DNA of 64,000 bases from Secundilactobacillus angelensis (GTDB lineage: Bacteria; Bacillota; Bacilli; Lactobacillales; Lactobacillaceae), in contig NZ_JAAXLJ010000002.1 in NCBI RefSeq assembly GCF_012641075.1, forward strand, positions 1 to 64,000. The letters run 5' to 3'. A model generated the notes under the pieces. That model was not told the DNA's origin and searched no databases. It was given only the letters and a program-made list of their open reading frames with translations. Positions 725 to 18,106 of this stretch are shown here, piece by piece (position 1 is the stretch's first letter; every line of letters starts with the position of its first letter). The translations under genes were made by a program, and so were the position numbers.

Positions 725-1690
725 TCACTTCGCCGCCACTTGCAAGAGCTTGATCTGATCCACCAAGAAGGCCATCAGACTAGCTTTCGTCAATCCCTTA
801 TAGGCTGGCTCAGTGGCGAGTAAATGATCGATCTGATTCCCCACCAAAGCACTGACGTTGGGCCAGATGCTGGCAAACTCCCGAACTAGCTGGGCGTGTT
901 CCCGCTGAAAAGTTTCCTGGTCCGCTGCAGGAAAGCGTTGCGCGCGAAGGTAAATGTCGGCGAAATACGCCACCGCGCGAGGCACCAGCTGTTCAGGCCG
1001 CTGATCACGAATCTTCTCTAACAGATAACGGTTGACTTCGACCCACTGATCAAGCTGACCAGCAAGCGCCCGTTTAATGGCATCCTCGTGCCACAGCCAG
1101 ATATAGACCACTTTATCCAGGTACGAAATATCGGTGGCCATGGCACACGCCAGCCCCACAAAGTAGGTGTCTTCATTGAATTGCAGATCTTCCCGCCACG
1201 TGAGCGACAGGCTGGAAATATACTTCCGGTTAAACCATTTAGCGGCAACCGTCTGCCAGTTATGCTCAGGATGAGTGACGTACTGGTACGTGCCGTCAGC
1301 ATCGCGGATTTCCTCTACATAGCGCGCGATAATGACTTGATGGTCCCCCGCTTTGACTGCGTTGAAGAACGACCACAGTGCTTGGGTATTTTGCAGCTCA
1401 TCGTCGGCGTCCACGAACATATAGTAATCCCCACTAGATATGTCCATACCGACCTGCCGAGCCACGCCAGCACCTAGGCTGTCTTCATAGCCGTAATAGC
1501 GGGCGTCTAAGTTTTCAAATTCCTCAAACAGCGCGTCCCCATCGATGGCTTCAGCCCCATCACCAATAAGGATGACTTCCACCTGGGTAAAATCGATCCC
1601 CGTTTGATTGTTGATCGACGATAATACCCGTCTGAGCTGGTTTAACGTCTCGTTGTGATACGGGATAATAATTGATACTAGCTTACTCAT
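725..1690 (-). CDS. Family 2 glycosyltransferase
   Basis: A 321-residue protein with the GT-A fold of family GT2. It starts with the VSIIIPYHNE strand-loop that begins the nucleotide-sugar site, has SSINNQT in the first helix, and the metal-binding VDADDE (DXD) near residue 97. No transmembrane segment is evident, so it is probably cytosolic. ATG at 1690 overlaps no other gene and lies 14 bases after the upstream paralogue. The two GT2 genes are tandem relatives (both carry the SSINNQ motif) and follow the giant adhesin on the same strand. The inference is that they glycosylate the adhesin or a surface glycan. The acceptor and sugar cannot be told from sequence. Confidence 0.8.
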   Translation of the reverse strand: MSKLVSIIIPYHNETLNQLRRVLSSINNQTGIDFTQVEVILIGDGAEAIDGDALFEEFENLDARYYGYEDSLGAGVARQVGMDISSGDYYMFVDADDELQNTQALWSFFNAVKAGDHQVIIARYVEEIRDADGTYQYVTHPEHNWQTVAAKWFNRKYISSLSLTWREDLQFNEDTYFVGLACAMATDISYLDKVVYIWLWHEDAIKRALAGQLDQWVEVNRYLLEKIRDQRPEQLVPRAVAYFADIYLRAQRFPAADQETFQREHAQLVREFASIWPNVSALVGNQIDHLLATEPAYKGLTKASLMAFLVDQIKLLQVAAK

Positions 1691-1704
1691 CGTCCATATC
1701 CCCC

Positions 1705-2697
1705 TTAATTTTGCGCGACGTTAAAGGAAAAGCCCAACTGTTTCAAATAAACCGTGAAGCCGTCCAGATACTGATTGAACTGAGCGGTCTCAGCGTTCCA
1801 GGGTGCCTTTGGTGACTGGTCTTGACGCTTCAAATCACCGATAAACCCAAGGACGTACCCCCAAGTCAGCGCGTTCTTCCCTACTAGCGACTGCATCAGC
1901 TGCTGCATGGTTCCCTTAGCCGTTTCTGGCAGCTGTTTGATCTGGCTGTAGAAACGAACCACGAAGCGGGCAAATTCATTCGCGTAGGTCTGCTGATTCA
2001 AGTTCTTGAGTTTCTCAAAATATTGTTCCTTCATGGTCAGCCATTGGGGGTCGACCGGCCGCTTGAAGCCAGCTAAGACACCGGCTGGTAAGTGGCGGTT
2101 CGTGAACTTAGTGTAGCCGATTTCGTTGACCGCCACATCTTCGTTAGCAAATAGATGAACGAGGTTGCAGAAATATTCTTCTGCGTGTTCAGGTACGCCA
2201 ACGGGGAAATTAATCTGCTGTTCACTGAGAAAGCCCCGTCGAAACAGTCGGCCACGAACCGTTCGCGTGTTTTGGCCAACTTTATAATCAAACTGCAGAT
2301 CAGGTGAAAACGCCTGTTCCAGCAGTAACGGTGAAATGACATCGGCTCCCGCATGCGCCTTCATCTGCCGCAGGAAGGTCTGCAAAATATCGGTCTGGTT
2401 CAGCTGACCATTGACCCCCATAAACATCACGTATGTGCCTGTGGCCTGGCCCAAGCCAAACTGCAACGCTGCCACCCAATCCAAAGCTTGATTCGTTTTG
2501 AGGTAGGTCATTTCAATATTGGCAAACAGTTCCAGTAGTTTGGGCTGCTTCAGCTTGTACGTGCCGTTATCCACCAAGATCACTTCGATCTGGGCTAAAT
2601 CCACCCCGATTTGATTGTTAATGGATGATAACGGGACTGCCAAATCGCTCTCCTGTGCGTTGTTAACTGGGATGATAATACTGATCTGCTTTTCCAT
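1705..2697 (-). CDS. Family 2 glycosyltransferase-like protein, divergent
   Basis: A 330-residue relative of the next gene. It keeps the GT2 opening (ISIIIPVNN, SSINNQIG) and the VILVDNG strand, but the place where the paralogue has VDADDE reads FMGVNGQ, so the canonical DXD is lost. It may be catalytically altered or act as a chaperone-like partner of the active paralogue. Paired active and degenerate glycosyltransferases are known for adhesin glycosylation (GtfA/GtfB), though those belong to other families, so the parallel is only functional. The start at 2697 is preceded by an AGGAGG-type site (GGAGGTAGGC). It is cotranscribable with the downstream GT2 (14-base gap). About 210 bases with two strong hairpins separate it from the adhesin stop. 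Confidence 0.65.
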   Translation of the reverse strand: MEKQISIIIPVNNAQESDLAVPLSSINNQIGVDLAQIEVILVDNGTYKLKQPKLLELFANIEMTYLKTNQALDWVAALQFGLGQATGTYVMFMGVNGQLNQTDILQTFLRQMKAHAGADVISPLLLEQAFSPDLQFDYKVGQNTRTVRGRLFRRGFLSEQQINFPVGVPEHAEEYFCNLVHLFANEDVAVNEIGYTKFTNRHLPAGVLAGFKRPVDPQWLTMKEQYFEKLKNLNQQTYANEFARFVVRFYSQIKQLPETAKGTMQQLMQSLVGKNALTWGYVLGFIGDLKRQDQSPKAPWNAETAQFNQYLDGFTVYLKQLGFSFNVAQN

Positions 2698-2907: not shown

Positions 2908-5900
2908 TTAATACAGAGCATCCTCGTCATCATCGTGACGTTTCTTACGCTTCAATGCACCGTAGACCATTGCGGCCTCCAGAACACTTGCGCCGATACC
3001 TAACATGACTGCTGCTTCGCCATCGTTGGTCTCGCTGGTTTGTGGCAACGTCTTAGCAGCTACACTAGCCTGCTTAGTGTTGCTGGTGCCAGAGAGAACT
3101 TGCGTGGTGGCGGTTGGGGCAGCCTTGCCGCCTTCAGTATCGTAACCCGTTTCAGTCACCACACCGCCGTTGTCGGTATCAGTACCGTTGTCGCCGATCA
3201 GGCTGTCACCATCGACACCGGTAGAATCGCCATCAGTCGTCGTGGTTTGACCGTTATCGCCGCCTGGAACAACCGTATTGTCACCAGTTGTCGTCGTGGT
3301 ATTGTCACCTGTTGGTGTGTTGCCCGTTGGGGTGTTACCGCCTGGGGTATTGTTACCTGTTGGTGTGTTACCAGTTGGGGTATTACCATCTGGTACATTG
3401 CCATTTGGTACGTTGCCGTCTGGTGTATTACCACCTGGCTTGTTACCATCCGGTGTGTTGCCATCTGGGGTATTGCCATTTGGTGTTACACCGCCAGGAA
3501 CCTTTTCAATCGTGTCCGTGGTGGTCGTTGACTTAGAACCGTCTGGGTTGGTAATCGTGGTAATGATAACCGTCTCAGTCGTCTTCGAACCATCTGGGCC
3601 ATTGGTGATCGTGACCGTCTTATTCGTGGTGGTGTTAGAGTTATTGCCACCATTGTTATCCGTGTTGTCTTTACCCGGAGTCGTCACAATTTCGGTCGTG
3701 GTCGTCGTGGTCTTATTGCCGCTAGGATCCGTAACGATCGTGACAATAACCGTCTTGGTGGTCGTTGAACCATCCGTGTTATTAGTGATCGTCACCGTCT
3801 TAGTGGTGTTCGTTGAAGACCCGTCAGTACCAGTATTGCCGCCATTGTTATCACTTGGCTTCGTGTTATCAGCAGGTGTCGTTACGATGTTGATCGTGGT
3901 CGTAGAATCGGCACCATCTTCACCTGGCGTCGTCGTGGTGGTTGTCTTAGTCGTCTTCGAGCCATCTGGATTAATAATAATCTCAACGGTCTTAACGGTC
4001 TTTGAACCATCAGGATTAGTCGTGGTGTTGGTGGTCGTCGACGTATTCGAAGTCGTCGAACTATCGGTTCCTTGACCATCACTACCGCCGCCGTTGTTGA
4101 TATTGTTGTTGGTAATGTTAATGCCACCGTTACCAGTACCCGTACCATCACCAGTGGTGCTGCCACCACCGTTTGGCACCGTGATTGAACCAGCATTGCT
4201 GCCGTCTGGGTAAGTGAAGTAGTAAGTGGTTGTGCCGGCTTCTTTATTGACTACCGTCTTGGAAGGATCGATTTGTGGTGTTTGACCATCTTTACCGTCA
4301 GCACCATCTTTGCCGTCTTTACCATCCTTAAGGGTGTAATCAATACCGTTCAGGGTGAAGGTCCACCCATCGACATTGCCGTCAGCATCGTAGTGTGGCG
4401 CAACCGTTGGCGTTTGACCATCTTTACCATCCACACCATTCTTCGGTGCGTCTACGCGACCAACGGAAACCTTGTCGCCGTCAGCGTTAGTGTAGTAGAA
4501 GTTGTAAGCAACGATGTTACCGTCGCCATCTTTGATAGCTTCAACGTGCGGTGTCTTACCATCCACACCATCTTTTGGTGCGTTAACCTTACCAACAGTA
4601 GTGGTTGAGCCGTCTGGGTTAAGGACGTAGAACTCGTATGAAGTCGTGCCGTCAGTGTTCTCAACGGCTTTGACTTGAGGCGTTTGACCGTTCTTACCGT
4701 CTTTGCCGTTAGGAATCTTAACTTGACTGCCATCGCTGAAGGTAACAACCGTATTACCATCTGCATCAGGTGCTTGGCTAACAACGGTGATGCTTTGACC
4801 ATCTGCACCGTCTTGACCATTCTTAACGGTGTAATCCTTACCATTCAAGGTAAAGGTCCAGCCGTCAACGTTGCCATCACCATCAGTGTGCGGTGTAACT
4901 GTTGGGGTTTGGCCATCCTTAGGTGCAGGAACCATCCCAAGTGTGACTTTCTCGCCCTTATCGTTGGTGTAGTAGAAGTTGTAGCTAACTGTATTGCCGT
5001 TAGCGTCAGTGATTGGTTCGACTGATGGGGTCTTGCCATCTTGACCATCCTTAGGTGCGGTGATCAAGCCAACCGGCGTCTCAGAGCCATCTGGGTTGTT
5101 GACGTAGAACTCGTATGAAGTCGTGCCGTCTTCGCCCTTAACCACTTTCATTTGAGGCGTGAGACCATCTTTACCATCCACACCATCTTTACCATTCAAA
5201 ACGGTGTAGTCCTTACCGCCGATCGTGAAGGTAAAGCCGGTTTGACCATCTTTATCGTATGGTGTAACCGTTGGCGTCTCGCCATCTTGACCGTCCTTAG
5301 GTGCCGGTACATTACCAACCGTCTTTTCGGAGCCATCTGGATTAGTGATGTAGAAGACGTATGACTTCGAACCATCATTATTCGTGACTTCCTTAACCTG
5401 TGGTGTTTGTGCATCTTGACCGTCTTTAGGTGCGTCAACCGTACCGACGTCAACTTCCTTGCCATCTTCACCAATGGTGTAGAAGACGTATGAAGTCTTG
5501 CCGTCTTGGCCAACAACCGCTTTCACTTGAGGCGTCTCACCTGGTTCACCTTGATCACCTTTGTCGCCTTTATCACCCTTAGCACCTTTATCAACTGTGA
5601 CGGTTGAGCCATCGCTGAAGATAATGACAGTGTTGCCATCCTTATCAGTAGTTGAACTCTTGATCGTCAAATCTTTACCGTCTTCACCATTCTTAACGGT
5701 GTAGTCGTGACCGTCGATAGTAAATGTGTAACCATCAACATTGCCTTCGCCGTCAGTGTGTGGTGTTACTGTAGGCGTTTCACCATCTTTACCATCCTTA
5801 GGCGCTGGAACGTTACCCATATCGGTGGTAGAACCATCTGGGTTGGTGATGTAGAACTCGTATGACTTCGAGCCATCTGAGTTCGTTACTTCCTTAACCT

Positions 5901-8900
5901 GAGGTGTTTGAGCATCCTTACCATCGACACCGTTAGTCCCGTTGATACCATCTTTAGGTGCCTTAACTGTACCAATTGTCGTGGTTGAACCGTCTGGGTT
6001 AACAACGTAGAACTCGTAAGCATTCGTGCCGTCTTCACCCTTCACAGTTCTAACTTGAGGTGTTGGCGCATCCTTACCATCAGTACCGTTAGTGCCATCT
6101 TTACCTTTGTTAACAATGATTTGTGAACCATCGCTGAAGGTAACGACCGTGTTGCCGTCGGAATTGATAAGTTGGCTCTTAACGGTTAATGCTGCGCCGT
6201 CTTTACCATCCTTAGGTGCCGGAACGATGCCCATGATCTTGTCGTCAGAACCATCACCAGTAGGACCTGGAATGTAGAATTCGTATGAAATGGTGTTGCC
6301 GTCAGCATCCTTAATTGGTTTAACTGTTGGCGTCTGACCATCTTTACCATCCGTACCGTTAGTCCCATCCTTAGGTGCATCAACCTTGCCGAGAACTGTA
6401 TCATCGGAACCATCACCTGCAGGACCTGGAATGTAGAATACCAGTGACTTAGTCCCATCAGGGTTAGGAACTTCCTTAACCCGTGGTGTTTGACCATCCT
6501 TACCAGCAGCGCCGGCAGGAATCTTGACGTTATGGCCATCGGAGAAGGTAACAATGGTGTTGCCATCCTGATCAATGGTTGAGCCGGTGACGGTTAAGTC
6601 TTTACCATCGGTACCGTCTTCACCATCTTGACCATCAACACCGTTAGTAACGTTGTAATCAACGCCGTTCAGCGTGAAGGTGTAGCCAGTCTTACCATCA
6701 GTACCAGTGTAAGGTTTAACCGTTGGCGTAGAACCGTCCTTAGGTGCCGGAACAATACCAGTTGAAACCTTTTCACCCTGGTCGTTAGTGTAGTAGAACT
6801 GGTAATTTGTAACGTTGCCATTATCATCCTTGAGTGGTTCAACCAATGGTGTGTGCCCGTCTTTAGGAGCAGGAACGTTGCCAACGACCTGGTCGTCAGA
6901 ACCGTTTTGACCTGGAATGTAGAAGACCAGCGTCTTGTTACCATCACCATCGGTAACTTCCTTAACTCTAGGCGTCTGAGCATCCTTACCATCAGCACCC
7001 TTATCGATCGTTGCTTTAGTACCATCAGAGAAGGTGACAACCGTGTTACCTTGATCATCTTTCGAAGTGTCGGTAACGGTGATTGACTTCCCATCCTTAG
7101 GTGCGTCAATGGTACCAAAGTCGTGTTCCGTACCATCCGGGTCAATCGTGTAGAAGACGTACGATGTCTTGCCATCAGCGCCCGGAACGGCTTTAACCTG
7201 TGGTGTCTTACCATCGGTACCATCTTTACCGTTAGAAATGTTAATGGTTTGAGCTGGTTGATCAGAACCTGGCGTGGTAATGGTGATGGTTGTGCCAATA
7301 GTCTTGCCGTCAGTATCCTTTTCAGGCGTCTGGGTAATCACTGGTGTCTTACCATCAACACCGTTCTTGATGCTGCCGACCGTCTTGCCGTCAATGGTAA
7401 TGTTGTAGCTGATGATATTGCCCTGATCGTCTTTAACTGGCGTGAAGTCAGGGGTCTTACCATCTACACCATTGTGCAGTGTGCCGACAGTCTTACCATC
7501 GATAACGATATCAAGCGTCCCAGTTGGGTTGCCGTTAGGATCTTTTTCAGGCGTGATAACTGGTGAAGCACCATCTTTACCATTCAGGATCGTATCGCCG
7601 TCTTTGCCATCGATCACAATGGTGACACCAATTTGGTTGCCGTCCTTGTCAAGCGCTGGCTTAGTCGTGACAACAGAACCATCCTTACCATTCTTAAGCT
7701 CACCGGCTGGGTTGCCGTTGATGGTAATTGCGTAACCAATAATGTTGCCATTATCGTCTTTTTCAGGCGTCAGTACAGGCGTTGAGCCGTCTTTACCATT
7801 AGTAACGTTGATGGTTTGAGTCTTATCAGAACCTGGCGTGGTAATGGTAATTGTGGTCCCAGTAACGTTGCCATCGCCATCCGTTGTCGGCGTCTGGGTA
7901 ATGACTGGTGTAGCACCATCTTTACCATTGGTGATAGAGCCAACCTTGGTGTTGTTAACCAGAATGTCGTAGCCAGTGACGTTGCCGTCATTGTCCTTGA
8001 CTGGGTTGAACTGTGGTGTTGCACCATCTTTACCACTGCGCAAGGTTCCAACCGTTTGCTCGCCTACCGTAATGGTAAAGTTGCCAGTTGGTTGACCATT
8101 TTCATCAACTTCTGGTGTGATGACTGGTGAAGAACCTGGATCACCCTTATCACCTTTTTCACCTTGGGGACCATTCAAGATGGTACCGGAGTCTTTACCA
8201 TCAATGACCAGCGTAACGCCGATTTGTTTATCGCCATCCATTAATGGCTTAGTGGTTACAACTGAACCATCTTTACCATTGGTAATGGTACCGACCGTCT
8301 TGCCATCAATCGTAATGGTGTAACCGAGAACTTTACCATCAGTATCCTTGTTTTCAGTAAATTCAGGTGTCTTACCGTCTTTACCGTTTTGCAGGGTACC
8401 AACCGTCTTGTCGCCAACTTTAATGACGAAGTTGCCAGTTGGGTTGCCACTGTCATCAAGTTCTGGCGTGATGACTGGTGAATCACCCGTGTCACCCTTA
8501 GGACCGTTCAAGATCGTACCGGAGTCCTGACCATTGATAACCAGTGTGGTTCCGATTGGCTTGCCATTTTCATCAGTAGCTGGCTTAGTTGTAACCGTTG
8601 GCGTCTTACCGTCTTCACCATCCTTAAGTTCACCGACCTTGGTACCATTCAGCATGATATCGTAGCCAGTTTCAGTCTTGGTAAATGTTGGTGTTGCACC
8701 GTTAGAAATGGTTACAGTTTGTGGTGCGTCAGTTGAACCTGGAGTAGTGATCGTTAGTGTGTTGCTAATGACGTTACCCGCGTCATCTTTGTTAGGCGTT
8801 ACGGTAATCTCTGGTGTCTTACCATCTTCACCATTCTTGATTGTCGCCACATCTTTGCCACCGATTGAAATGGTAAAGCTCTTACCGTCTTGAGATGGTG

Positions 8901-11900
8901 TAATCTCTGGTGTAGCACCGTCATAGATGTAGGAAATGGTATCCGGATCGCCATTGGCATGGGTAACCGTAATCTTAACACCGCTTACACCTGGCTTATC
9001 AGTATCGGTTACCCGTTCGCTGGTGATCGTGTCACCCGTATTTGGAACTGGCAAAGTGCTGATATCAGTATCATCCGTGCCATCGCCCTTTGGACCTGGA
9101 ATGTAGAAGACCAACGTTGGTTTCCCATCTTTATCCGTACCAGGTTTAACTGAAAGTGGCGTACCATCCTTGCCATCATTACCGTTCTTGACGGTAAATG
9201 AACCGGCTGGCTGACCGTTGACAGTCATGTTGTAAGTGGTTGTGCCGTCGCCGTTATCAATCCCCTTTGGATCAACAACTGGTGAAGCACCATCGTTACC
9301 ATTCCAGATGGTTTGGGTCGTATCATCACTGCCATCACCATGTTTGATGGTCAACAGCGTACCGCCGTTTGGATGATCAGCGTCGCCATCGATTGGTGTT
9401 GCTGTGATGGTGTCACCATCTTTTGGTTGAGGAATCGTAACCATATCGTTTTCAGGTATATCATCATGAGCAGGCGTAAAGAAGATGATGACTGGGTTAC
9501 CATTAATATCCATCCCAGTCTTAGCTTGAACCGCTTGTCCATCAGCACCATCTTTACCATCCTTAACGGTGAATGAACCAGTTGGTTTGCCGTTAACAGT
9601 GAACTGGTACGTGGTCGTGCCATCACCGTTATCCGTCCCCTTTGGATCAACGACTGGTGTAGCACCGTCGTTACCATTCCAAATGGTCTCGGTGGTATCT
9701 TTGCTGCCATCACCGTGTTTGATCGTGATCAAAATGCCGCCGTTTGGATGGTCAGCATCGCCATCAATTGCACTTGTGGTGATCGTGTCGCCATCCTTTG
9801 GTGCAGGAATGTTGCCTAAGTCTTGTTCAGGTGTGTCGCCGTTAGCTGGAATAAAGAAGGTCAAAACTTTATTACCTTTTTCATCCGTCCCAGGCTTGAC
9901 ACTTGGCGTTTGGGCATTCTTCCCATTTTCACCATCGTAGAGATAAGTGATGGTTGGGTCGCCTGTAGCGTGGGTAACCGTGATCTTAACACCACCGATA
10001 CCTGGCTTATCAGTATCCTTGACCCGTTCGGCAGTAATCGTGTCACCGGCACCAGGTAGTGGAACTGTGCCAAGGTCTTTTTCAGGAACATCGTTGCCAT
10101 CAGCATCTTTACCAGCAGGGATAAACAGGATTAAGTTGCCACCCTCTTCTTTGATATGAGGGTCGCCGTTGGTGTTGCTGCTGCCATCCGTACCATTCTT
10201 AATCGTGAAGTTTTCTTTCGTTGGATTACCATCATTGTCGTAACTGGTAATGGTGATCTCTTCGCCAGTAACTTTGTCCTTGTTGGTTGGATCATCTTTG
10301 ACATCAGCGTGAGTGATAATCGGTGGATTCAACACAACGAAGGTTTGAACATCTGGTGTCCCATCATCCTTAAATGAGTTAACTGTAATCGTCTTACCAA
10401 TAACAGTCGTACCATCCTTGGCATACTTATCAGCCGTCTGAATCGTTGGTGTTTGACCATCCTTAGGAATTGGAATCGTCCCAACTGATTGATGGTGGCC
10501 ATCAGGTCCAGTGACATAGAAGCTGTAAACGTTCTTGGTTGAATCATCAGGATCCGGAATCGTTTCGATTTGTGGTGAAACCCCATCAGAAACAGTCACT
10601 TCACCTACTTTAGCTCCTGCTGGAATATCAGCTGGTGTCAGCGCATCTTCACCTTCTGCAGGTTTGAGTACATCACCGGTGTAGAAGTAAGTCGTGTGCT
10701 GAGTTGGTGTACCAGTAGTAGCATCGCCTAACTTATCGACTGTAAATGAGTGAATAGCTTCCGGTGTTGGTTCTTCAACCGTACCGATTGACTGGTGTGA
10801 ATTATTAGGGCCAGGAATATAGAAGTTATAAACGTTCTTGCTTGGATCGTCAGGATCCGGAATCGTTTCAACTTGCGGTGTCTGACCGTCTTCACCATCA
10901 TGAGTCTCCACATCCCCAATGATTGGGTTCTTAGCATTTTGAACATCTTCATAGGTTAATGGCGATTCAGGCGTAATCGCTGTACCGTCTGTATGAGTTG
11001 CTGGCACATCACCCGTGTAGAAGTAAGTGGTGTGGGTACCCTTATCAGTATCATTAACAGTGACGGAGTGAATGGTTGGGGCTTTGGTTGGAAGAGTGAT
11101 CGGTGTACCAGTACCTACCCCGTTAATTGTAAGTTCAAATGTACCGTCATGATTATCTTGAAGATCCAGATCTGGTAAATTACCGGCTGGTGCATCCGGA
11201 ATATCAACTTCTGTTCTATTGCCACCAGCAGTGTTCGTCGTATCACCATCAGCAAAGATATAGATTGGCGTGTAACCATTGGCTGTGTCAGTCTTGTCAA
11301 CGTGGTCACCAGCTACAAACGCTGGAATATTTCCCTTTGGCATTGCGACCGCAGTACCACTCGGTTGACCGTTAACAGTGAGTGTAAAGGTCCCGTCATG
11401 GTTATCCTGAGCGCCAATCAGCGGATCATCAACAGTAACATGGCCGATTTCTGTATCCTTATTCTTTTCGATATCAGCTTGTGTCAGCTGAGTACCTTGA
11501 GCGGGATCTGGAATCTTGTCACCAGTGTAGAAATAAGTTGTGTGACTTGCTGCTTGGGTGATTGTACCGTCTTGGCCTTTAGTAGCTGGTGTGTCCACAG
11601 TAAATGAGTAGATATTTGGTGCTTTACCATCTTCACCATTCTGAGCATCGAAAGTACCAACCTCGGTTGTACCGTTATAGATAGTGTAAGTGGTCTTATT
11701 ATCTTTAGGGTCAGTATCGGTATTCTTGACATTCAAATCAAGTTTTGGCGTTTCACCATTCTTAACAATAACTTGACCAATCATATCGTCTGCTGGAATG
11801 TCCTTAAGATCTGTGACTTTAGGACCCTTGTAGAAGTATACCGTGTTGCCAGTGCCAGTTTCATTACCCTGATCATCTTTGTCAGGAACCGTCAATGATT

Positions 11901-14900
11901 GAATAGCACTTGCACTTGGTGTGTACGTTACCGTAGTCTCCAAATCTTCAGGGTTACCTTCGACATCCAAAGGTACATTTTGGTCATCAACCATTGCGTT
12001 GTCTGGTGTTAAGTCAGCGACTGTAGGTGATGCAAGTGATGTGAAGATCTTCTTGACTGTAGTATCAGCAGTCCCTTTGCCATCTTCGGAAGAACCGGTA
12101 ACAACATAAGATACAGTCTTAATAACATTACCTTTTTCATCCTTAATGACCTTTGGCGTTAACGTCAAAGTTTGAACAGCATCAGGAGCCACACTAACGG
12201 CCTTAGGATTACCATCCGACTGTACTTCATTCTTCACATAGTGAATCGTCCGCTTAACTGTAACTGGCGTGCCATCCTCTACCTTGGAGTTATCAATACC
12301 TGGCTTAGCTGTGTAGATTACCCAGATATCTTGACCATCCGTTTTGTACTGAGAATCTGGACCAATATTATCAGGCAAAGCGTTGAACTGACCGCCGTTA
12401 ACATCAGCAGTTGCATAGTAGTACAGGGTACTGGTATCTAATGTACCGTTGCCGTTATCCAGCGCGGTACCGTCAGTGCCTTTGCCATCTGTTGTTTTAA
12501 TGGTCGGCGGTACGGTGATTTGACTAGTGTAGTCATCACCAACATCACCGCTGATAGGCTTATCAGGTGCGACTTCTGGACCGTCAACATTCTGGTAAAC
12601 GTAGTGAACGGTTCCGGCTGCCTTTTCTTTCGTGTAGTTAACCGCCCGATCAATCTCAATCGGCGAGTTATTCGCGTCCTTAGCAATCTTCAGCGAAACA
12701 TCAACGTTAGCTGCCTTCTGATCATCCGTCAGCGTAGCGCCGGTTGCAGTGTTCGCGAAGGATTCCGTGTAGCCGGGCTGCTTTTGCAGTTCGTTCGTGG
12801 TGAGCTTTGCGACGTTGATCGTATCAGTCCCATCAGAAACGTTACCGTCAGCATCAAGCTTTACATCACCGTTAGTGTTGGTTGTCCATGGACTGTAAGT
12901 GATGGTTGGATCTGTCTTACCCTCTGTATAGGTAACCGTTGCCGTCCGATAAAGGTCGTAATCCTTCAATTCTTCCTTAGTCGTCCCATCACCAACTGGA
13001 GCGCCATATGTGACGTATTCGGTGACTGCCTTAGTCAGCGCATCGTGATTAGTTTGATCCGTATCGCCAGGATTGTCTGGAGTATACGTCGTGTTAGCCT
13101 TGCGCAGATAAGTGTAGAATTCTGCAGGTGTCGTAGCGTCATATGTTTTATCAGTAAGATCAGCTTTTTGTACAGCAACGTAACCGTCTTTAGCGTAATC
13201 ATACAGCTTGGCACCATCAGTTGAAATCTTGGCACCAGTGTCACCATCCAGAACAACTGAAGCAACCTGATTACCATCGTTAGGTGCAAAGCCTGACGTC
13301 TTCTTGGTGTTGGAAACATCAATATAGTGAATTTCAGCACCGGCTGACTTAGTCGCACTCAACGTGATGGTTACTGTTTGATTTGCTTTGCTTGCGATGT
13401 CTTTAACGTCAACGCTACCATCAACAGTAACGTCACTGGCACCAACAGTAGCATCAACTGGCGTTGCGCCGGCCTTTGAAGCACTTAAGGTAGCACCGTT
13501 ATTCGCAGTTGCCTGGTGGTTTTCTGGAATTGCAAATGTACCTGAATCACCGTAACCAGCGGCAAGTAGTTTCGCAGCATCAGTATCGTTGTCTGGATTG
13601 GTATCAGACATATCAGTAACGTAGGTCTTAGCGTTATCTTCGCTGGCAAATGCTAACCACGTGCTGCTTGGCGTAATGCCTGTGACCTTACCACTAGCAT
13701 CTGTCGTAGCCTTGTTCGTTGTTTGCTTTACCCAGTAAAGGGTTTGGTTATCCAATTTAAGCCCAGTTGAACCATCACCTGTAAAGGTAAATGAACGTGT
13801 AGACTGGTGTTCTGCATCGCTAGGATCAGTAGTATCAAATGCAGTCTTCTTAACCAGGTATACATAACCATTAGCACTCTTATGATCAAGCTGATCCTGT
13901 GTGAACTTGCCACTTGGCAGGTTTTCCTGAACAACAAAGTAGTCAGGATACTTCGCTAAAACAGTAGGTTCATCTGTATAGGTGATTGGATCGTCAACGT
14001 TACCAATTGGCACTGGATCAGTTGTTAATACATTTGTTTTACCTGTTGATGAATCTTTTTTAATATCATCTGGAGTAAATCCTGATGTTTTACCAGAATC
14101 AGTCACATCAACATAACTGACTTCACCAGCATTCAACGTTGGGTCATTCAGCTGGAAAGTAACATCAACTGTATCAGTTGCTTTATCCAACTTATAGTTA
14201 ATCTTGGCAGTAACTACACCAGTTGCCGCACCTGAACTATCCTTTGCAATGTCAATTGATGCCGGCTGACCACCCACACCTTCGTCATAGACTGAAGGTG
14301 TGATTAGTTTATTAGGATCAGCAGCTTCTGGATTACCAGCAGACGGGAAACCAATTATCGGCTGCTTATTCGGATTTGCCCAAGTGTATGTGGTCTTCGC
14401 AGCATTGATTGTCTTAGTAATCGTCTTTGTTGCATCATCTGGGTCTGGAACGGTGTACGAGTATGATTGCCCACTCAAAAGAGCGTTCAAAGCTTGTGAA
14501 ACGTCAATACTGGGAATATCAGCTGTTTCTGCTGTTAACGTCTTATCATAAGGTGCTTGAGAAGTATACGTTACATTTCCCGTACCCTCTTGTGAGTACA
14601 CCGTTTGATTATTCTGATTAACGATTGATACTTGCACATTAGCTGAAGTTGTATTTTGAGCCAACAAACTATTCCAAGTGACTTGGTGACCGGTAATTCC
14701 CGTAGTGGAATCATCAGTAAAACCAACTGTCTTCCCGTTTGTTTTAGCGTCAGCAAGCATATTCAACAGCATATCACGTTGAGCATCAGTAAAGTGATAC
14801 GTATAAACTGATTCCCTACCAGTATTATTACCATATAGCGGTGCGGTCGTTGCACTTACTTGCCCCGTCATTGTTGCTGTTGACTTATCAGCGTCAGTTA

Positions 14901-16140
14901 GCGGCTTATTGGGATCACTTATGGCAACATAGAAGTGTTCATTGGGTTTAGGCAAAGCGACCCAAACCTCTGTATCGGGATATGCTTGGTTATCTGTACC
15001 GATTCTAACCGAGGATGTCAAGAATAATCCGAAGGCATTGCCGTTGTCACCGTCTGGAAAGTCACCACCTATATTTTCCATATCAATATGGTTATACACT
15101 AGAGGATCACTCGAAATAGAGATTCTGTTACCCAAACCATCCTTACTATTCGAAATGAAGAACGATTGCCCGGTAATTGTCATTGGAGCGGTGGTATTAC
15201 TGCCAGTCCCTGACCAGCCGGCAAATTGTTTGATTGCAGCAACTTGGCTTTGTGTTAACTCATAGTCGTTAGCCAGATTAATAGTCAACGTATTAGTTGC
15301 TTGATCATAGGTAACAGATCCTTTAGCAGGAGTGTCTACCTTAGTTGGGTCAGTCTTATCATAAACCGCCTGTGGTATCCCAAATTGGTTATCCAGATTA
15401 AACTCTGAAGTATCCGTCGAACCTGATTCAGCTGGATCTAAAGCCGTAATCTCTTGGGCTTTACCGGTTTTAGCAAACTCAGCAGCTGCAGCAGTCTTAA
15501 CCGCATCAATAAGTTGCGTGTCTGTACTGCCTAAGTCAGTCTTTTGGATATCCGCACTCTTGGCTGAAGCATCCGTCTTGGTATCCGTTGCGGATTGCTG
15601 TGCGCTTGCGTCAGCAGTCTTGCTACTGTCGGTAGTAGGTGTCTGCATTGCGTCCGTCTTAGCGGCAGTTTGGGCAGCGACCTTAGTATCAGTTGCTGCT
15701 GGTGCAGCAGTCTTTGAACTGTCTGTTGTAGCCGCCTTAGTCGTTGTCTGCGTTGCAGTCTTACTATCAGTAGTAGGAGTTGCAGTACCTTGAGTCGTTG
15801 TTGCTTGAGCGGTACTGTCAGCTGAAGTACTCTTTACGGCTGTCCCCTGTTGAGTCTGGGTTGTAGCTGGAGTACTGGTCGCAGTACTTGTATTGTGTAA
15901 CGTGACCTGCTTAAGCGCGGTCGCTGATTGATCGATGGTAGTAGTGTTGCTGTTACTACCATCCGTAGCTACTGTGTCCGCTTTAACTTCTTGCGGTAAA
16001 GCAAACGCAGAGATTCCAAAAGTCAGTGTTGCCATTCCAGCAACTAGCCAACGTGTTCCCGCTTTATAGAGCTTGTAATGTACTTTTCGATCAGCGGAAT
16101 CACGTTGCAACTTCTGCCTGTTGAACTTATATTTTTCCAA
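2908..16140 (-). CDS. Giant LPxT-anchored, KxYKxGxxW-signal repetitive adhesin
   Basis: A 4,410-residue cell-wall protein. Residues 1-56 form a KxYKxGxxW signal (YKLYKAGTRW, then a hydrophobic stretch and a site near VKADT). Residues ~57-205 are Ser/Thr/Ala/Gln-rich. Residues ~210-650 look like a globular binding head. Mucin-binding-like modules follow (VSYVDV near 672, EIHYIDV near 935, TVHYVYQNVDG near 1174, TIHYVKN near 1296). From ~1460 to ~3960 come dozens of Asp/Gly-rich repeats built on KDGxTPxV, with short Gly-X-Y runs. A Thr/Asn stalk and PDGNTP-type repeats lead to LPQTS at 4365-4369, a membrane helix and RKKRH. The tail then ends in DDDEDALY, unusual after the basic stop-transfer. 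Start is TTG at 16140 behind GAGGGGGG. No good promoter lies directly upstream in this orientation; the adjacent invertible segment carries one. Ligand unknown. Confidence 0.93.
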   Translation of the reverse strand: MEKYKFNRQKLQRDSADRKVHYKLYKAGTRWLVAGMATLTFGISAFALPQEVKADTVATDGSNSNTTTIDQSATALKQVTLHNTSTATSTPATTQTQQGTAVKSTSADSTAQATTTQGTATPTTDSKTATQTTTKAATTDSSKTAAPAATDTKVAAQTAAKTDAMQTPTTDSSKTADASAQQSATDTKTDASAKSADIQKTDLGSTDTQLIDAVKTAAAAEFAKTGKAQEITALDPAESGSTDTSEFNLDNQFGIPQAVYDKTDPTKVDTPAKGSVTYDQATNTLTINLANDYELTQSQVAAIKQFAGWSGTGSNTTAPMTITGQSFFISNSKDGLGNRISISSDPLVYNHIDMENIGGDFPDGDNGNAFGLFLTSSVRIGTDNQAYPDTEVWVALPKPNEHFYVAISDPNKPLTDADKSTATMTGQVSATTAPLYGNNTGRESVYTYHFTDAQRDMLLNMLADAKTNGKTVGFTDDSTTGITGHQVTWNSLLAQNTTSANVQVSIVNQNNQTVYSQEGTGNVTYTSQAPYDKTLTAETADIPSIDVSQALNALLSGQSYSYTVPDPDDATKTITKTINAAKTTYTWANPNKQPIIGFPSAGNPEAADPNKLITPSVYDEGVGGQPASIDIAKDSSGAATGVVTAKINYKLDKATDTVDVTFQLNDPTLNAGEVSYVDVTDSGKTSGFTPDDIKKDSSTGKTNVLTTDPVPIGNVDDPITYTDEPTVLAKYPDYFVVQENLPSGKFTQDQLDHKSANGYVYLVKKTAFDTTDPSDAEHQSTRSFTFTGDGSTGLKLDNQTLYWVKQTTNKATTDASGKVTGITPSSTWLAFASEDNAKTYVTDMSDTNPDNDTDAAKLLAAGYGDSGTFAIPENHQATANNGATLSASKAGATPVDATVGASDVTVDGSVDVKDIASKANQTVTITLSATKSAGAEIHYIDVSNTKKTSGFAPNDGNQVASVVLDGDTGAKISTDGAKLYDYAKDGYVAVQKADLTDKTYDATTPAEFYTYLRKANTTYTPDNPGDTDQTNHDALTKAVTEYVTYGAPVGDGTTKEELKDYDLYRTATVTYTEGKTDPTITYSPWTTNTNGDVKLDADGNVSDGTDTINVAKLTTNELQKQPGYTESFANTATGATLTDDQKAANVDVSLKIAKDANNSPIEIDRAVNYTKEKAAGTVHYVYQNVDGPEVAPDKPISGDVGDDYTSQITVPPTIKTTDGKGTDGTALDNGNGTLDTSTLYYYATADVNGGQFNALPDNIGPDSQYKTDGQDIWVIYTAKPGIDNSKVEDGTPVTVKRTIHYVKNEVQSDGNPKAVSVAPDAVQTLTLTPKVIKDEKGNVIKTVSYVVTGSSEDGKGTADTTVKKIFTSLASPTVADLTPDNAMVDDQNVPLDVEGNPEDLETTVTYTPSASAIQSLTVPDKDDQGNETGTGNTVYFYKGPKVTDLKDIPADDMIGQVIVKNGETPKLDLNVKNTDTDPKDNKTTYTIYNGTTEVGTFDAQNGEDGKAPNIYSFTVDTPATKGQDGTITQAASHTTYFYTGDKIPDPAQGTQLTQADIEKNKDTEIGHVTVDDPLIGAQDNHDGTFTLTVNGQPSGTAVAMPKGNIPAFVAGDHVDKTDTANGYTPIYIFADGDTTNTAGGNRTEVDIPDAPAGNLPDLDLQDNHDGTFELTINGVGTGTPITLPTKAPTIHSVTVNDTDKGTHTTYFYTGDVPATHTDGTAITPESPLTYEDVQNAKNPIIGDVETHDGEDGQTPQVETIPDPDDPSKNVYNFYIPGPNNSHQSIGTVEEPTPEAIHSFTVDKLGDATTGTPTQHTTYFYTGDVLKPAEGEDALTPADIPAGAKVGEVTVSDGVSPQIETIPDPDDSTKNVYSFYVTGPDGHHQSVGTIPIPKDGQTPTIQTADKYAKDGTTVIGKTITVNSFKDDGTPDVQTFVVLNPPIITHADVKDDPTNKDKVTGEEITITSYDNDGNPTKENFTIKNGTDGSSNTNGDPHIKEEGGNLILFIPAGKDADGNDVPEKDLGTVPLPGAGDTITAERVKDTDKPGIGGVKITVTHATGDPTITYLYDGENGKNAQTPSVKPGTDEKGNKVLTFFIPANGDTPEQDLGNIPAPKDGDTITTSAIDGDADHPNGGILITIKHGDGSKDTTETIWNGNDGATPVVDPKGTDNGDGTTTYQFTVNGKPTGSFTVKDGKDGADGQAVQAKTGMDINGNPVIIFFTPAHDDIPENDMVTIPQPKDGDTITATPIDGDADHPNGGTLLTIKHGDGSDDTTQTIWNGNDGASPVVDPKGIDNGDGTTTYNMTVNGQPAGSFTVKNGNDGKDGTPLSVKPGTDKDGKPTLVFYIPGPKGDGTDDTDISTLPVPNTGDTITSERVTDTDKPGVSGVKITVTHANGDPDTISYIYDGATPEITPSQDGKSFTISIGGKDVATIKNGEDGKTPEITVTPNKDDAGNVISNTLTITTPGSTDAPQTVTISNGATPTFTKTETGYDIMLNGTKVGELKDGEDGKTPTVTTKPATDENGKPIGTTLVINGQDSGTILNGPKGDTGDSPVITPELDDSGNPTGNFVIKVGDKTVGTLQNGKDGKTPEFTENKDTDGKVLGYTITIDGKTVGTITNGKDGSVVTTKPLMDGDKQIGVTLVIDGKDSGTILNGPQGEKGDKGDPGSSPVITPEVDENGQPTGNFTITVGEQTVGTLRSGKDGATPQFNPVKDNDGNVTGYDILVNNTKVGSITNGKDGATPVITQTPTTDGDGNVTGTTITITTPGSDKTQTINVTNGKDGSTPVLTPEKDDNGNIIGYAITINGNPAGELKNGKDGSVVTTKPALDKDGNQIGVTIVIDGKDGDTILNGKDGASPVITPEKDPNGNPTGTLDIVIDGKTVGTLHNGVDGKTPDFTPVKDDQGNIISYNITIDGKTVGSIKNGVDGKTPVITQTPEKDTDGKTIGTTITITTPGSDQPAQTINISNGKDGTDGKTPQVKAVPGADGKTSYVFYTIDPDGTEHDFGTIDAPKDGKSITVTDTSKDDQGNTVVTFSDGTKATIDKGADGKDAQTPRVKEVTDGDGNKTLVFYIPGQNGSDDQVVGNVPAPKDGHTPLVEPLKDDNGNVTNYQFYYTNDQGEKVSTGIVPAPKDGSTPTVKPYTGTDGKTGYTFTLNGVDYNVTNGVDGQDGEDGTDGKDLTVTGSTIDQDGNTIVTFSDGHNVKIPAGAAGKDGQTPRVKEVPNPDGTKSLVFYIPGPAGDGSDDTVLGKVDAPKDGTNGTDGKDGQTPTVKPIKDADGNTISYEFYIPGPTGDGSDDKIMGIVPAPKDGKDGAALTVKSQLINSDGNTVVTFSDGSQIIVNKGKDGTNGTDGKDAPTPQVRTVKGEDGTNAYEFYVVNPDGSTTTIGTVKAPKDGINGTNGVDGKDAQTPQVKEVTNSDGSKSYEFYITNPDGSTTDMGNVPAPKDGKDGETPTVTPHTDGEGNVDGYTFTIDGHDYTVKNGEDGKDLTIKSSTTDKDGNTVIIFSDGSTVTVDKGAKGDKGDKGDQGEPGETPQVKAVVGQDGKTSYVFYTIGEDGKEVDVGTVDAPKDGQDAQTPQVKEVTNNDGSKSYVFYITNPDGSEKTVGNVPAPKDGQDGETPTVTPYDKDGQTGFTFTIGGKDYTVLNGKDGVDGKDGLTPQMKVVKGEDGTTSYEFYVNNPDGSETPVGLITAPKDGQDGKTPSVEPITDANGNTVSYNFYYTNDKGEKVTLGMVPAPKDGQTPTVTPHTDGDGNVDGWTFTLNGKDYTVKNGQDGADGQSITVVSQAPDADGNTVVTFSDGSQVKIPNGKDGKNGQTPQVKAVENTDGTTSYEFYVLNPDGSTTTVGKVNAPKDGVDGKTPHVEAIKDGDGNIVAYNFYYTNADGDKVSVGRVDAPKNGVDGKDGQTPTVAPHYDADGNVDGWTFTLNGIDYTLKDGKDGKDGADGKDGQTPQIDPSKTVVNKEAGTTTYYFTYPDGSNAGSITVPNGGGSTTGDGTGTGNGGINITNNNINNGGGSDGQGTDSSTTSNTSTTTNTTTNPDGSKTVKTVEIIINPDGSKTTKTTTTTTPGEDGADSTTTINIVTTPADNTKPSDNNGGNTGTDGSSTNTTKTVTITNNTDGSTTTKTVIVTIVTDPSGNKTTTTTTEIVTTPGKDNTDNNGGNNSNTTTNKTVTITNGPDGSKTTETVIITTITNPDGSKSTTTTDTIEKVPGGVTPNGNTPDGNTPDGNKPGGNTPDGNVPNGNVPDGNTPTGNTPTGNNTPGGNTPTGNTPTGDNTTTTTGDNTVVPGGDNGQTTTTDGDSTGVDGDSLIGDNGTDTDNGGVVTETGYDTEGGKAAPTATTQVLSGTSNTKQASVAAKTLPQTSETNDGEAAVMLGIGASVLEAAMVYGALKRKKRHDDDEDALY
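16105..16133 (+). promoter_or_regulatory. Candidate promoter for the recombinase, inside the adhesin 5' end
   Basis: TTGCAA (16105-16110), a 17-base spacer and TATATT (16128-16133) read rightwards. It lies within the first codons of the adhesin, antisense to it and outside the invertible segment. In the present orientation it would transcribe the left crossover site, the attenuator hairpin and the recombinase. Confidence 0.5.
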
Positions 16141-16170
16141 TGAAATTTCCCCCCTCGTAAATTTTCGATG

Positions 16171-16198
16171 TACCTTTTCGGGTACACCCCAAAAAGTA
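16171..16198. repeat. Left candidate crossover site of the serine recombinase
   Basis: On the minus strand the core is GGGT-GT-ACCC (16189-16180): palindromic arms around an asymmetric central dinucleotide. The dyad extends outward, ACCC(C/G)AAAA(A/G)GTA on both sides. This is the usual architecture of Hin/Gin/Pin crossover sites. The right copy at 17127-17154 has the same core in opposite orientation. Confidence 0.65.
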
Positions 16199-16206
16199 TA
16201 AAATTT

Positions 16207-16239
16207 GAAGTGAGGCCATTGGGTCTCACTTCATTTTTT
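16207..16239 (+). terminator. Attenuator/terminator hairpin before the recombinase
   Basis: An 11-bp stem with one G-U pair (16207-16217 with 16222-16232, 4-nt loop) is followed by ATTTTTT and then immediately by the recombinase ribosome site. Transcription entering from the left would be expected to stop here most of the time, keeping invertase levels low. Confidence 0.7.
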
Positions 16240-16254
16240 GTAGGAGGATTTTTC

Positions 16255-16848
16255 ATGATATACGGTTATGCGCGCGTCAGTACTAAAGACCAAAACCTTG
16301 CTCGGCAGATCCAAGCATTGTCCGATTTGGGCGTTGATAGAATATTCAAAGAAAAGGCTTCAGGGTCTAATCTATCCCGGCCAATCTTAAAGAAACTGCT
16401 AGCGTTATTAAAGCCAGATGATGTGATCAAAGTCCTTAGTCTGGATCGACTAGGCCGCAATGCAAATGACGTGACCAATGTGATCATCGAAATCCGAAGT
16501 AAAGGCGCCAACATTGACTTTCTGGACATCCCATCATACGAAGATGTTCGAGATGAAAACACCCGCAACTTACTCAGTTCAATTACCATTGAACTGCAGA
16601 AATACCTGGCAGCTGAGGAGCGCAAAAAGATCCTTGAGCGCCAACGTCAAGGTATCGCACTCGCTAAGCTAAGGGGCGTCTATCAAGGACGGCCTATTCT
16701 TTATGGGCCAAACGTCTCAAACTCGGATAGAAGGAAAACTTACTTTGAAATCAAACGTTTATTAAAAGCTGACACCCCCGTCCGCAGGATTCAACAGCTC
16801 ACGGGAAGAAGTATCACCCTGATTCAGCGCATCAAGAGAGAGTTGTAA
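16255..16848 (+). CDS. Serine recombinase, Pin/Hin-like DNA invertase family
   Basis: A 197-residue resolvase/invertase-family protein. The N-terminal catalytic domain has the nucleophile motif YARVSTKDQ (Ser at residue 10) and LDRLGRNANDV with the conserved arginines. A long E-helix region (TIELQKYLAAEERKKILERQRQG) leads to a short C-terminal helix-turn-helix (TGRSITLIQRIK). The size fits small invertases, not large transposon integrases. ATG at 16255 is chosen over upstream possibilities because TAGGAGG ends 7 bases before it. It is divergent from the giant adhesin and flanked by inverted crossover-like sites (16171-16198 and 17127-17154), which fits a local DNA inversion role. An alternative is a resolvase left from a mobile element, but no transposase or other mobile genes are nearby. 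Confidence 0.9.
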   Translation: MIYGYARVSTKDQNLARQIQALSDLGVDRIFKEKASGSNLSRPILKKLLALLKPDDVIKVLSLDRLGRNANDVTNVIIEIRSKGANIDFLDIPSYEDVRDENTRNLLSSITIELQKYLAAEERKKILERQRQGIALAKLRGVYQGRPILYGPNVSNSDRRKTYFEIKRLLKADTPVRRIQQLTGRSITLIQRIKREL

Positions 16849-17000
16849 TTCGCTTTGTAAGAGTTAAAAAATTATAAATATTGTTTATGGGGTTAATCTT
16901 TCTATGATTCATATTTGTAATTATGTTTATATAAGTGTTTTAAATATCCACTTTGCTTTATAAATAATCATATTTTCAGATGTGTCCCATCTGGCGCGGG

Positions 17001-17029
17001 TTGTACATTTATGTATCCGGTGCTATATT
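17001..17029 (+). promoter_or_regulatory. Strong extended -10 promoter inside the invertible segment
   Basis: TTGTAC (17001-17006), 17-base spacer, TATATT (17024-17029) preceded by TGC (extended -10). It is followed by a leader with a GGGGGAGG ribosome site and a short reading frame. It faces right, away from the adhesin, in this orientation. Confidence 0.65.
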
Positions 17030-17063
17030 GCTATTGAGTTTAGCGAACTAGAAATTCTATCTC

Positions 17064-17148
17064 GGGGGAGGAAGAAATTGCTAGGAAAACTGCTAGTTTA
17101 CTGAACAACTTGCAAAGAAGTTTTTGTATGTTTATGGGTGTACCCTAA
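17064..17148 (+). other. Ribosome site and short reading frame ending at the crossover
   Basis: A near-ideal ribosome site (17064-17071) precedes a frame open from 17044 to 17145 and closed by TAA at 17146-17148, directly after the crossover core. ATT at 17077 is in this frame at ideal spacing but is a very rare start; TTG 17110, ATG 17128 and ATG 17134 are further in-frame options. TTG at 17078 is also well spaced but in another frame and gives only 8 residues. If the segment is inverted, the long frame joins in phase to the codons upstream of the adhesin start and runs into it without a stop. Confidence 0.4.
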
Positions 17149-17154
17149 AAAGTT
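17127..17154. repeat. Right candidate crossover site of the serine recombinase
   Basis: Core GGGT-GT-ACCC at 17136-17145 on the plus strand, identical over 10 bases to the left site read on the minus strand. Flanks also agree (AAAA, then GT two bases further, on the right; TTTT.TA..TTT on the left). Opposite orientation of the central GT predicts inversion, not deletion. Confidence 0.65.
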
Positions 17155-17353
17155 ATGCGCTTATTTTGCCCTTAATCAAATCTTAATATTTATACAATCG
17201 AAAAAAGTTTCACCATTTTTTTCAATTTTTACTAAATTTTTGGGATTTGTAGAGTTCTCCCGGCTTATACGTCAGTAATTTCGCTGTGGATGTCAATTAC
17301 TAGACAGGTAAAATTTGACTGTTGATAATGACTTGCCCAGAGATATACATTAA
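17155..17353. other. AT-rich non-coding stretch right of the switch
   Basis: Between the right crossover and the stop of the ComK-like gene I see only AT-rich sequence and no credible gene. In the inverted state this flank would lie upstream of the recombinase. A consensus TTGACA is present on the minus strand near 17300, but without a well-spaced -10. Confidence 0.5.
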
Positions 17354-18106
17354 TCAGAACTCGGTTTCCGGAATCTGATCATATTGTTGCTTGTTGAGTT
17401 CCTTATCGACCTGCTCGTGGAACTCCAGGAAACCGACTTTTTGTAACACTTGTGCCCGCTTCAGCCGATCTTCTTCCACGATGGCTTTCTTCAAGTCTGC
17501 TGGGCTGAGTCGGAACTCCTTGTCGTCTAGGATGGGACACATGAGGATTAGCTTCTGCCTGAAGTAACTGGCGATCTGCTTGCACCTCTTTTGCCGGTGT
17601 CGAATGGCAAATTCGGATAGTTGCCATTCCAGCACCATCTGATTAGCGACTACCACCCTGCTGACATTATCGAAGTGGTACCAAAAGTCGCGGCGGTGAT
17701 GCCAGCGAAACCAGCTCCGATTCTCGGATATGCGCTGATTCATCGGCATGAGCCAAAAGTCTTGGCAGATGAACGGTACCGACTTTTTGATCCCCAGTGC
17801 CCGGCCGGCGGTGCGCCTGATATCGTTATAGAAGTCGACAGCGAAGGTTTCTCGCAGGCGCTTCATCATCTGGCAAGTGGTTGTCCTGGCCTTGATGATG
17901 CGCTGATTATCATAGATGACGATCGTGTTATGAATGTCTTGGGTTTCGATCTTGTTGATCAGGGCGACCACGTGGTGCCAGTCTGGTACGAAGATCAGGT
18001 CTTCATTGCTGACGACCACGTCTGCAAGTTCCAGCTTCTCTGGTACCAGGTACCCTTGCTCTTCGACTTTTGCGCGGCATTCCGGCGTAAGGTCCATATA
18101 GTGCAT
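17354..18106 (-). CDS. ComK-like competence transcription factor (probable)
   Basis: A 250-residue basic, aromatic-rich protein. The middle (about residues 88-190) resembles ComK: a basic run ending in GRALGIKKSVPF, a stretch with MPMNQRIS where ComK has its FPT segment, then W.RWH and a C-terminal run of S-F-x-x-x-x-R-Q-x-R type (ComK: WISH ... SFQNQ). ComK binds AT-rich boxes upstream of DNA-uptake genes and activates them; B. subtilis ComK is about 190 residues, so this one has an N-terminal extension (residues 1-60). ATG 18106 lies 11 bases from AGGAGG. No other competence gene is nearby. The similarity is from memory of the family and is moderate; an unrelated regulator is possible. Confidence 0.5.
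   Translation of the reverse strand: MHYMDLTPECRAKVEEQGYLVPEKLELADVVVSNEDLIFVPDWHHVVALINKIETQDIHNTIVIYDNQRIIKARTTTCQMMKRLRETFAVDFYNDIRRTAGRALGIKKSVPFICQDFWLMPMNQRISENRSWFRWHHRRDFWYHFDNVSRVVVANQMVLEWQLSEFAIRHRQKRCKQIASYFRQKLILMCPILDDKEFRLSPADLKKAIVEEDRLKRAQVLQKVGFLEFHEQVDKELNKQQYDQIPETEF

Follow-up and report, generated by a model that had tools for sequence, protein, structure and literature searches.

A probable self-contained promoter-inversion switch beside a giant adhesin gene of Secundilactobacillus angelensis, sequenced in the OFF orientation

The window analysed here is a 64,000-nucleotide stretch of Secundilactobacillus angelensis DNA (positions 1 to 64,000 of contig NZ_JAAXLJ010000002.1, assembly GCF_012641075.1), and it contains the gene for a 4,410-residue surface adhesin with, on the upstream side of the adhesin start, a serine recombinase gene that lies together with a promoter between two inverted copies of a short site. 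Our reading, to which we give a probability of roughly 0.87, is that this arrangement is a self-contained promoter-inversion (phase-variation) switch of the adhesin and that it was sequenced in the OFF orientation. An initial annotation had proposed such a switch, and the comparative evidence supports it. In the mechanism we favor, the recombinase would pair the inverted GGGT-GT-ACCC sites, cut in or beside the central GT and rejoin the ends, flipping 956 bp. In the sequenced (OFF) orientation, the only strong promoter of the segment faces away from the adhesin, with a conserved terminator-like hairpin between the segment and the adhesin, and in the ON state the promoter and its structured leader would come to lie 155 nt before the adhesin start. 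The specificity of the site, the conservation of the promoter, leader and hairpin, the opposite orientations that occur in nature, and the flip of a related system at this core were all computed or compared directly.

The two sites are inverted copies of GGGT-GT-ACCC, GGGTGTACCC, and they are the sole exact copies of this 10-mer within the window. When one mismatch is allowed, the window holds 5 copies and 2.4 are expected, so the 10-mer by itself is weak and unremarkable evidence in 64 kb. The arms around the two cores are alike over 32 nt (78%), and the segment between the site centres holds both the recombinase gene and the outward promoter. The inverted sites that had been placed around a recombinase gene at 16255-16848 have the correct coordinates and distances, and the segment length of about 956 bp that had been estimated agrees with the 956 bp we measure from centre to centre. 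An inverted site pair with an asymmetric central dinucleotide is present in the window and in three relatives, and one copy is visible at each locus in S. yichangensis. As expected of an inverton, the promoter lies between inverted sites, adjoins the gene that it would regulate, and is absent on the OFF side.

We counted the motif in 398 genomes, 15 of them from Secundilactobacillus and 383 from other Lactobacillaceae. The pattern GGGTGTACCCNAAA occurs as one copy per strand in each of the five Secundilactobacillus genomes that bear the recombinase and is absent from the other 10, and a reversed control pattern has no match in any of the 15. In the 383 other genomes there are eight matches, of which seven are at most ~400 bp away from a homologous serine recombinase and one, in G048, falls within a lipoprotein gene. 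Because motif and recombinase co-occur across genomes, the motif is very probably the recombinase's own site, and the same co-occurrence rules out a chance repeat. A master invertase with further sites is also ruled out, since the window genome has a single site pair and there are two sites only per genome. For the recombinase homologues of Weissella muntiaci (L012) and Lacticaseibacillus brantae (L014), flanking inverted sites were not found.

The recombinase scores 108.3 bits against PF00239 (cut-off 23.3), and Ser9, Arg7, Arg65 and Arg68 are unchanged in nine homologues. Its nearest solved structure is Sin/Tn552 bin3 (2r0q, 5.7e-33), and the likeness extends from end to end of the protein, with the DNA-binding part at the C terminus included. 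The DNA-invertases 4m6f and 3uj3 match at ~1e-18, and the Tn3/gamma-delta resolvases are likewise far behind Sin. By kinship, then, the recombinase stands closer to Sin than to the Hin/Gin/Pin subfamily, and the term Pin-like used in the initial annotation is too loose. Sin acts as a resolvase on direct res sites that come with accessory sites, whereas the window has two inverted single sites. A serine invertase that acts on surface-gene promoter segments is known in Mpi of Bacteroides fragilis (NCBIfam NF009949), to which the recombinase has a weak family match (41.9 bits versus a cut-off of 272); Mpi has many scattered sites, whereas here each genome has exactly one pair of sites, with the recombinase inside the segment.

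Four further species of Secundilactobacillus have the whole unit conserved. The order in the window, namely adhesin, site, hairpin, recombinase, promoter, leader, site and ComK-like gene, is found again in S. silagincola, S. mixtipabuli and S. pentosiphilus, whose recombinases are 85-87% identical to that of the window. In the window and in these three relatives, where the contigs span both sites, the promoter is directed away from the adhesin. At both S. yichangensis loci, it is instead the recombinase end that meets the conserved right flank (TAAAAAGTTATGC..CTTAA.CAAA.CTTAATAAATATACA followed by the ComK-like gene), which is opposite to the other species. Both orientations thus occur in nature, between species, with S. 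yichangensis on one side and the four others on the other; a single orientation in all relatives had been named beforehand as an outcome that would speak against a switch, and it is not what we observe. The S. yichangensis locus on contig 28 (L013) is a second copy of the switch, in which a deletion and a frameshift have disrupted the recombinase. The intact S. yichangensis recombinase could act on both loci.

The three relatives with the gene order of the window and both S. yichangensis loci keep the -35 and -10 elements of the segment promoter. In a DNA search with 16850-17145, the relatives match over the promoter, leader and site only, and the first ~150 bp (16850-16998) are unconserved. 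The extended -10 promoter that had been annotated at 17001-17029, facing away from the adhesin, is therefore present and conserved in relatives. The adhesin had also been described as having no good promoter directly upstream, and in the present orientation a scan of 15900-17700 gave no sigma-70-like site on the strand of the adhesin. Downstream of the segment promoter, the leader hairpin is of modest stability (z -2.07), and its stem is predicted in 4/4 species; an Rfam search of the region gave no match near threshold. We rejected the idea that the Shine-Dalgarno-like GGGGGAGG inside this hairpin (17064-17071) marks a real start, since S. silagincola lacks the short TTG reading frame that follows it, and it is more likely that this element would serve to stabilise the leader.

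When the segment is inverted in silico, the promoter -10 lies 155 nt upstream of the adhesin start, close to the 150 bases that had been predicted, and the adhesin ribosome-binding site is unaltered outside the segment. We infer that the segment inverts in the window strain, that the promoter would then drive the adhesin, and that expression would be heterogeneous from cell to cell. The flipped sequence (16140-16190 joined to 17140) also has an in-frame ATG ~30 codons upstream of the adhesin TTG, reading through the crossover site; the idea that the ON flip makes a fusion protein was rejected, as this extension is confined to the window strain and the relatives differ. A genome of the comparison set with no recombinase, G011, has a directly oriented adhesin leader that resembles the ON leader of the window (z 5.5, 0/500 shuffles) and shows no resemblance to the OFF side (z -0.8). 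Behind this leader comes TTTTGGGGTGTA, which has the look of a site that has decayed.

Related units are found in other genera. In four genomes of one genus (g12; L191, L192, L193 and L196), a recombinase that is 47-48% identical to that of the window adjoins a surface protein, which was annotated from sequence and has an LPxTG-type anchor at the end of the complete copy. In this genus, a 344-bp segment between GTGTACC cores is reversed in L196 relative to the other three genomes, at 97-99.7% identity and with the flanks in place; the exchange point falls within the shared GTGTACC, and the segment is without a recombinase gene. We take this flip as natural evidence for the GTGTACC core as an inversion site. 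The layout of the window recurs in another genus (G160:C13, L174), with a KxYKxGKxW adhesin, a site, a recombinase, a promoter (TTTACA-16-TACACT) and a site. In three genomes of genus g5 (L170, L171 and L172), similar units adjoin a gene for a 'TGKRFGKLVA..CDCG' protein, and two of the genomes have the recombinase directed toward that gene, whereas the third has it directed away. The window unit looks like a branch of a wider, apparently undescribed switch family.

The terminator-like hairpin in the segment, which has T's after it, keeps all 11 of its pairs in six loci, with 100% of cells paired. It contains four compensatory pairs, a result that is reached in 1/500 shuffles and is far above slid controls. 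Such a hairpin would halt transcripts from the flank that enter the recombinase gene, and it may serve as an insulator of the adhesin in the OFF state. The TATAAA next to the left core may be the -10 element of the recombinase gene, and if so, recombinase bound at the site would repress its own gene. Hin likewise represses its own gene when bound at its site.

Table 1. Coordinates of the candidate switch and of the genes beside it in the window
Feature	Position	Strand	Remarks
Surface adhesin, 4410 aa, TTG start	2908..16140	-	KxYKxGKxW signal, collagen-like/CFSR repeats, LPQTS-type C-terminal anchor
Adhesin ribosome-binding site, GAGGGGGG	16149..16156	-	Outside invertible segment; identical in three relatives
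Left recombination site arm	16172..16203	-	Core GGGT-GT-ACCC at 16180-16189
TATAAA, possible recombinase -10	16197..16202	+	Would overlap crossover site; invariant in 6 loci
Terminator-like hairpin	16206..16233	+	Between left site and recombinase ribosome site; putative insulator or attenuator
Serine recombinase, 197 aa, PF00239, intact	16255..16848	+	Ser9, Arg7, Arg65, Arg68 invariant in relatives
Extended -10 promoter, TTGTAC-17-TATATT with TG	17001..17029	+	Within segment, pointing away from adhesin (OFF)
Leader hairpin	17038..17106	+	Downstream of promoter; conserved Shine-Dalgarno-like element inside
Right recombination site arm	17122..17153	+	Core GGGT-GT-ACCC at 17136-17145
ComK-family protein	17354..18106	-	Paralogue; 3' end facing OFF-orientation promoter

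The adhesin signal scores 47.1 bits against PF19258 and 30.9 bits against TIGR03715, and at the C terminus, as judged by eye, a hydrophobic stretch and then a charged tail come after LPQTS. With its KxYKxGKxW signal and LPxTG-type anchor, the protein has the features of a sortase-anchored adhesin. The start region is conserved, and the TTG is supported as the adhesin start by G011 and G014:C8, which have an ATG in its position. Two glycosyltransferase family 2 genes (725-2697, minus strand) lie immediately downstream of the adhesin and may serve in adhesin glycosylation. On the other side of the switch, the ComK-like protein of the window scores 18.7-19.9 bits against Pfam ComK (gathering cut-off 22.3), and its orthologues in S. 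mixtipabuli and S. yichangensis score 25.9 and 26.4.

Several observations weigh against an active adhesin switch. In all four genomes in which the adhesin junction is assembled, the junction is OFF, and both S. yichangensis contigs stop at the same leader base, with the adhesin (ON) junction outside the assembly and the adhesin contig missing from it. A promoter-like site was not found in the 344-bp segment of g12. The sigma-70 scan gave 5 promoter-like sites versus 3.7 in shuffled sequence, and as shuffled sequence is nearly as rich in such sites, the case for 17001-17029 rests on conservation. The resemblance to the ON leader is weaker, and borderline pairwise, for G003 and is absent for G014:C8, and an nhmmer search with a leader profile gave no significant match to the fixed-promoter adhesins, so we regard the leader resemblance as supporting and not decisive. 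The four OFF junctions would also be seen if the unit were a frozen relic, an ancestral switch now locked OFF in the window strain, with the adhesin silent or on another promoter. Some relatives that have lost the recombinase, with fixed leaders and a degenerate site, agree with this, as does the broken recombinase copy of S. yichangensis; however, in the window the recombinase is intact with invariant catalytic residues, both cores are perfect, and the promoter and leader are conserved, and we give a relic little probability.

The segment promoter might instead produce an antisense or non-coding transcript over the ComK-like gene, with the adhesin as a bystander. A distinct ComK-family paralogue is confined to the switch neighbourhood in the genus (6/6 loci in five genomes, 46-51% identical), the other genomes of the genus having at most a remote ComK paralogue (27-33%), and there is no clear terminator between the OFF promoter and the 3' end of this gene. 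But the ComK-like gene has its 3' end toward the switch, and ComK-like mRNA therefore cannot come from this promoter; in other genera such units adjoin different genes, often those of surface proteins, and the adhesin leader of the recombinase-free species resembles the ON leader. We consider an antisense role as the sole function very improbable. Hardly any weight is left for a Sin-like or IS607-like resolvase or mobile element whose inverted ends are incidental, and an IS607-like element was rejected. In its favor are the closeness to Sin, the abundance of related recombinases on lactobacillus plasmids, and three related loci (L131, L138 and L140) at which ~53%-identical recombinases have a single GGGTGTACCC ~87 bp upstream, perhaps a resolution site. 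The window sites, however, are two and inverted, not direct, the unit has the same place beside the adhesin in four species, and the 344-bp segment of the same core has flipped in another genus without containing a recombinase gene. Given the single-site relatives and the plasmid abundance of related recombinases, it is a fair hypothesis that the switch was recruited from a plasmid resolvase. A broader scheme, which is speculative and on balance unlikely, would make the promoter-inversion switch a two-sided toggle, with adhesin expression in the ON state and antisense RNA over the ComK-family regulator in the OFF state, so that one flip would set both adhesion and a ComK-like programme; it would also place the switch in a Lactobacillaceae-wide inverton family that shares the GGTGTACC core and was recruited from Sin-like plasmid resolvases.

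Among known systems, the Hin/H-segment of Salmonella is similar in architecture: an invertible segment of ~1 kb carries both the gene of a serine recombinase and a promoter that faces outward, the inverted sites have an asymmetric centre of 2 bp, and the recombinase promoter region lies near one site. The window differs from Hin in its recombinase branch, in which Sin is nearest, in its site sequence, in its terminator-like hairpin and structured leader, and in its target, a giant Gram-positive adhesin. The CwpV and flg switches of Clostridioides difficile resemble it as cases of Gram-positive surface phase variation by inversion and differ in their use of RecV, which is an unlinked tyrosine recombinase. 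In these switches, phase-variable surface structures are controlled by DNA inversion (PMC2784873, PMC5386303). In Lactiplantibacillus plantarum, an inversion upstream of msa controls the mannose-specific adhesin and auto-aggregation, and most cells in ordinary culture are in the state of low expression (PMC8493755, citing Holst et al. 2019); that paper names no recombinase for it. In G261, where we located the msa promoter, Msa has the KxYKxGxxW signal KLYKCGKNW, so the msa switch shares with the window a DNA inversion upstream of a KxYKxGxxW adhesin. The msa segment (L214), however, is ~100 bp long between TTTTGTAAAAAATCGTGC-type repeats and has neither a GGGTGTACCC site nor an adjacent serine recombinase. 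An inversion switch on such an adhesin is therefore already known, and the novelty that had been claimed for the window is too strong on that point. Searches confined to the open-access literature turned up no paper that describes a switch run by a serine recombinase in Lactobacillaceae.

The unit in the window offers a concrete and testable mechanism by which food-related lactobacilli could display a giant adhesin in an all-or-none manner, and its recombinase, site and promoter are all contained in a single 1-kb cassette. It points as well to a wider family of switches with serine recombinases, apparently undescribed so far and recognisable by the core site, which lie beside surface-protein genes in several genera of Lactobacillaceae; within this group, the one published adhesin inversion that we found, that of msa, has no known recombinase. 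If this reading is true, the loss of adhesion on laboratory subculture could be a reversible flip and not a mutation.

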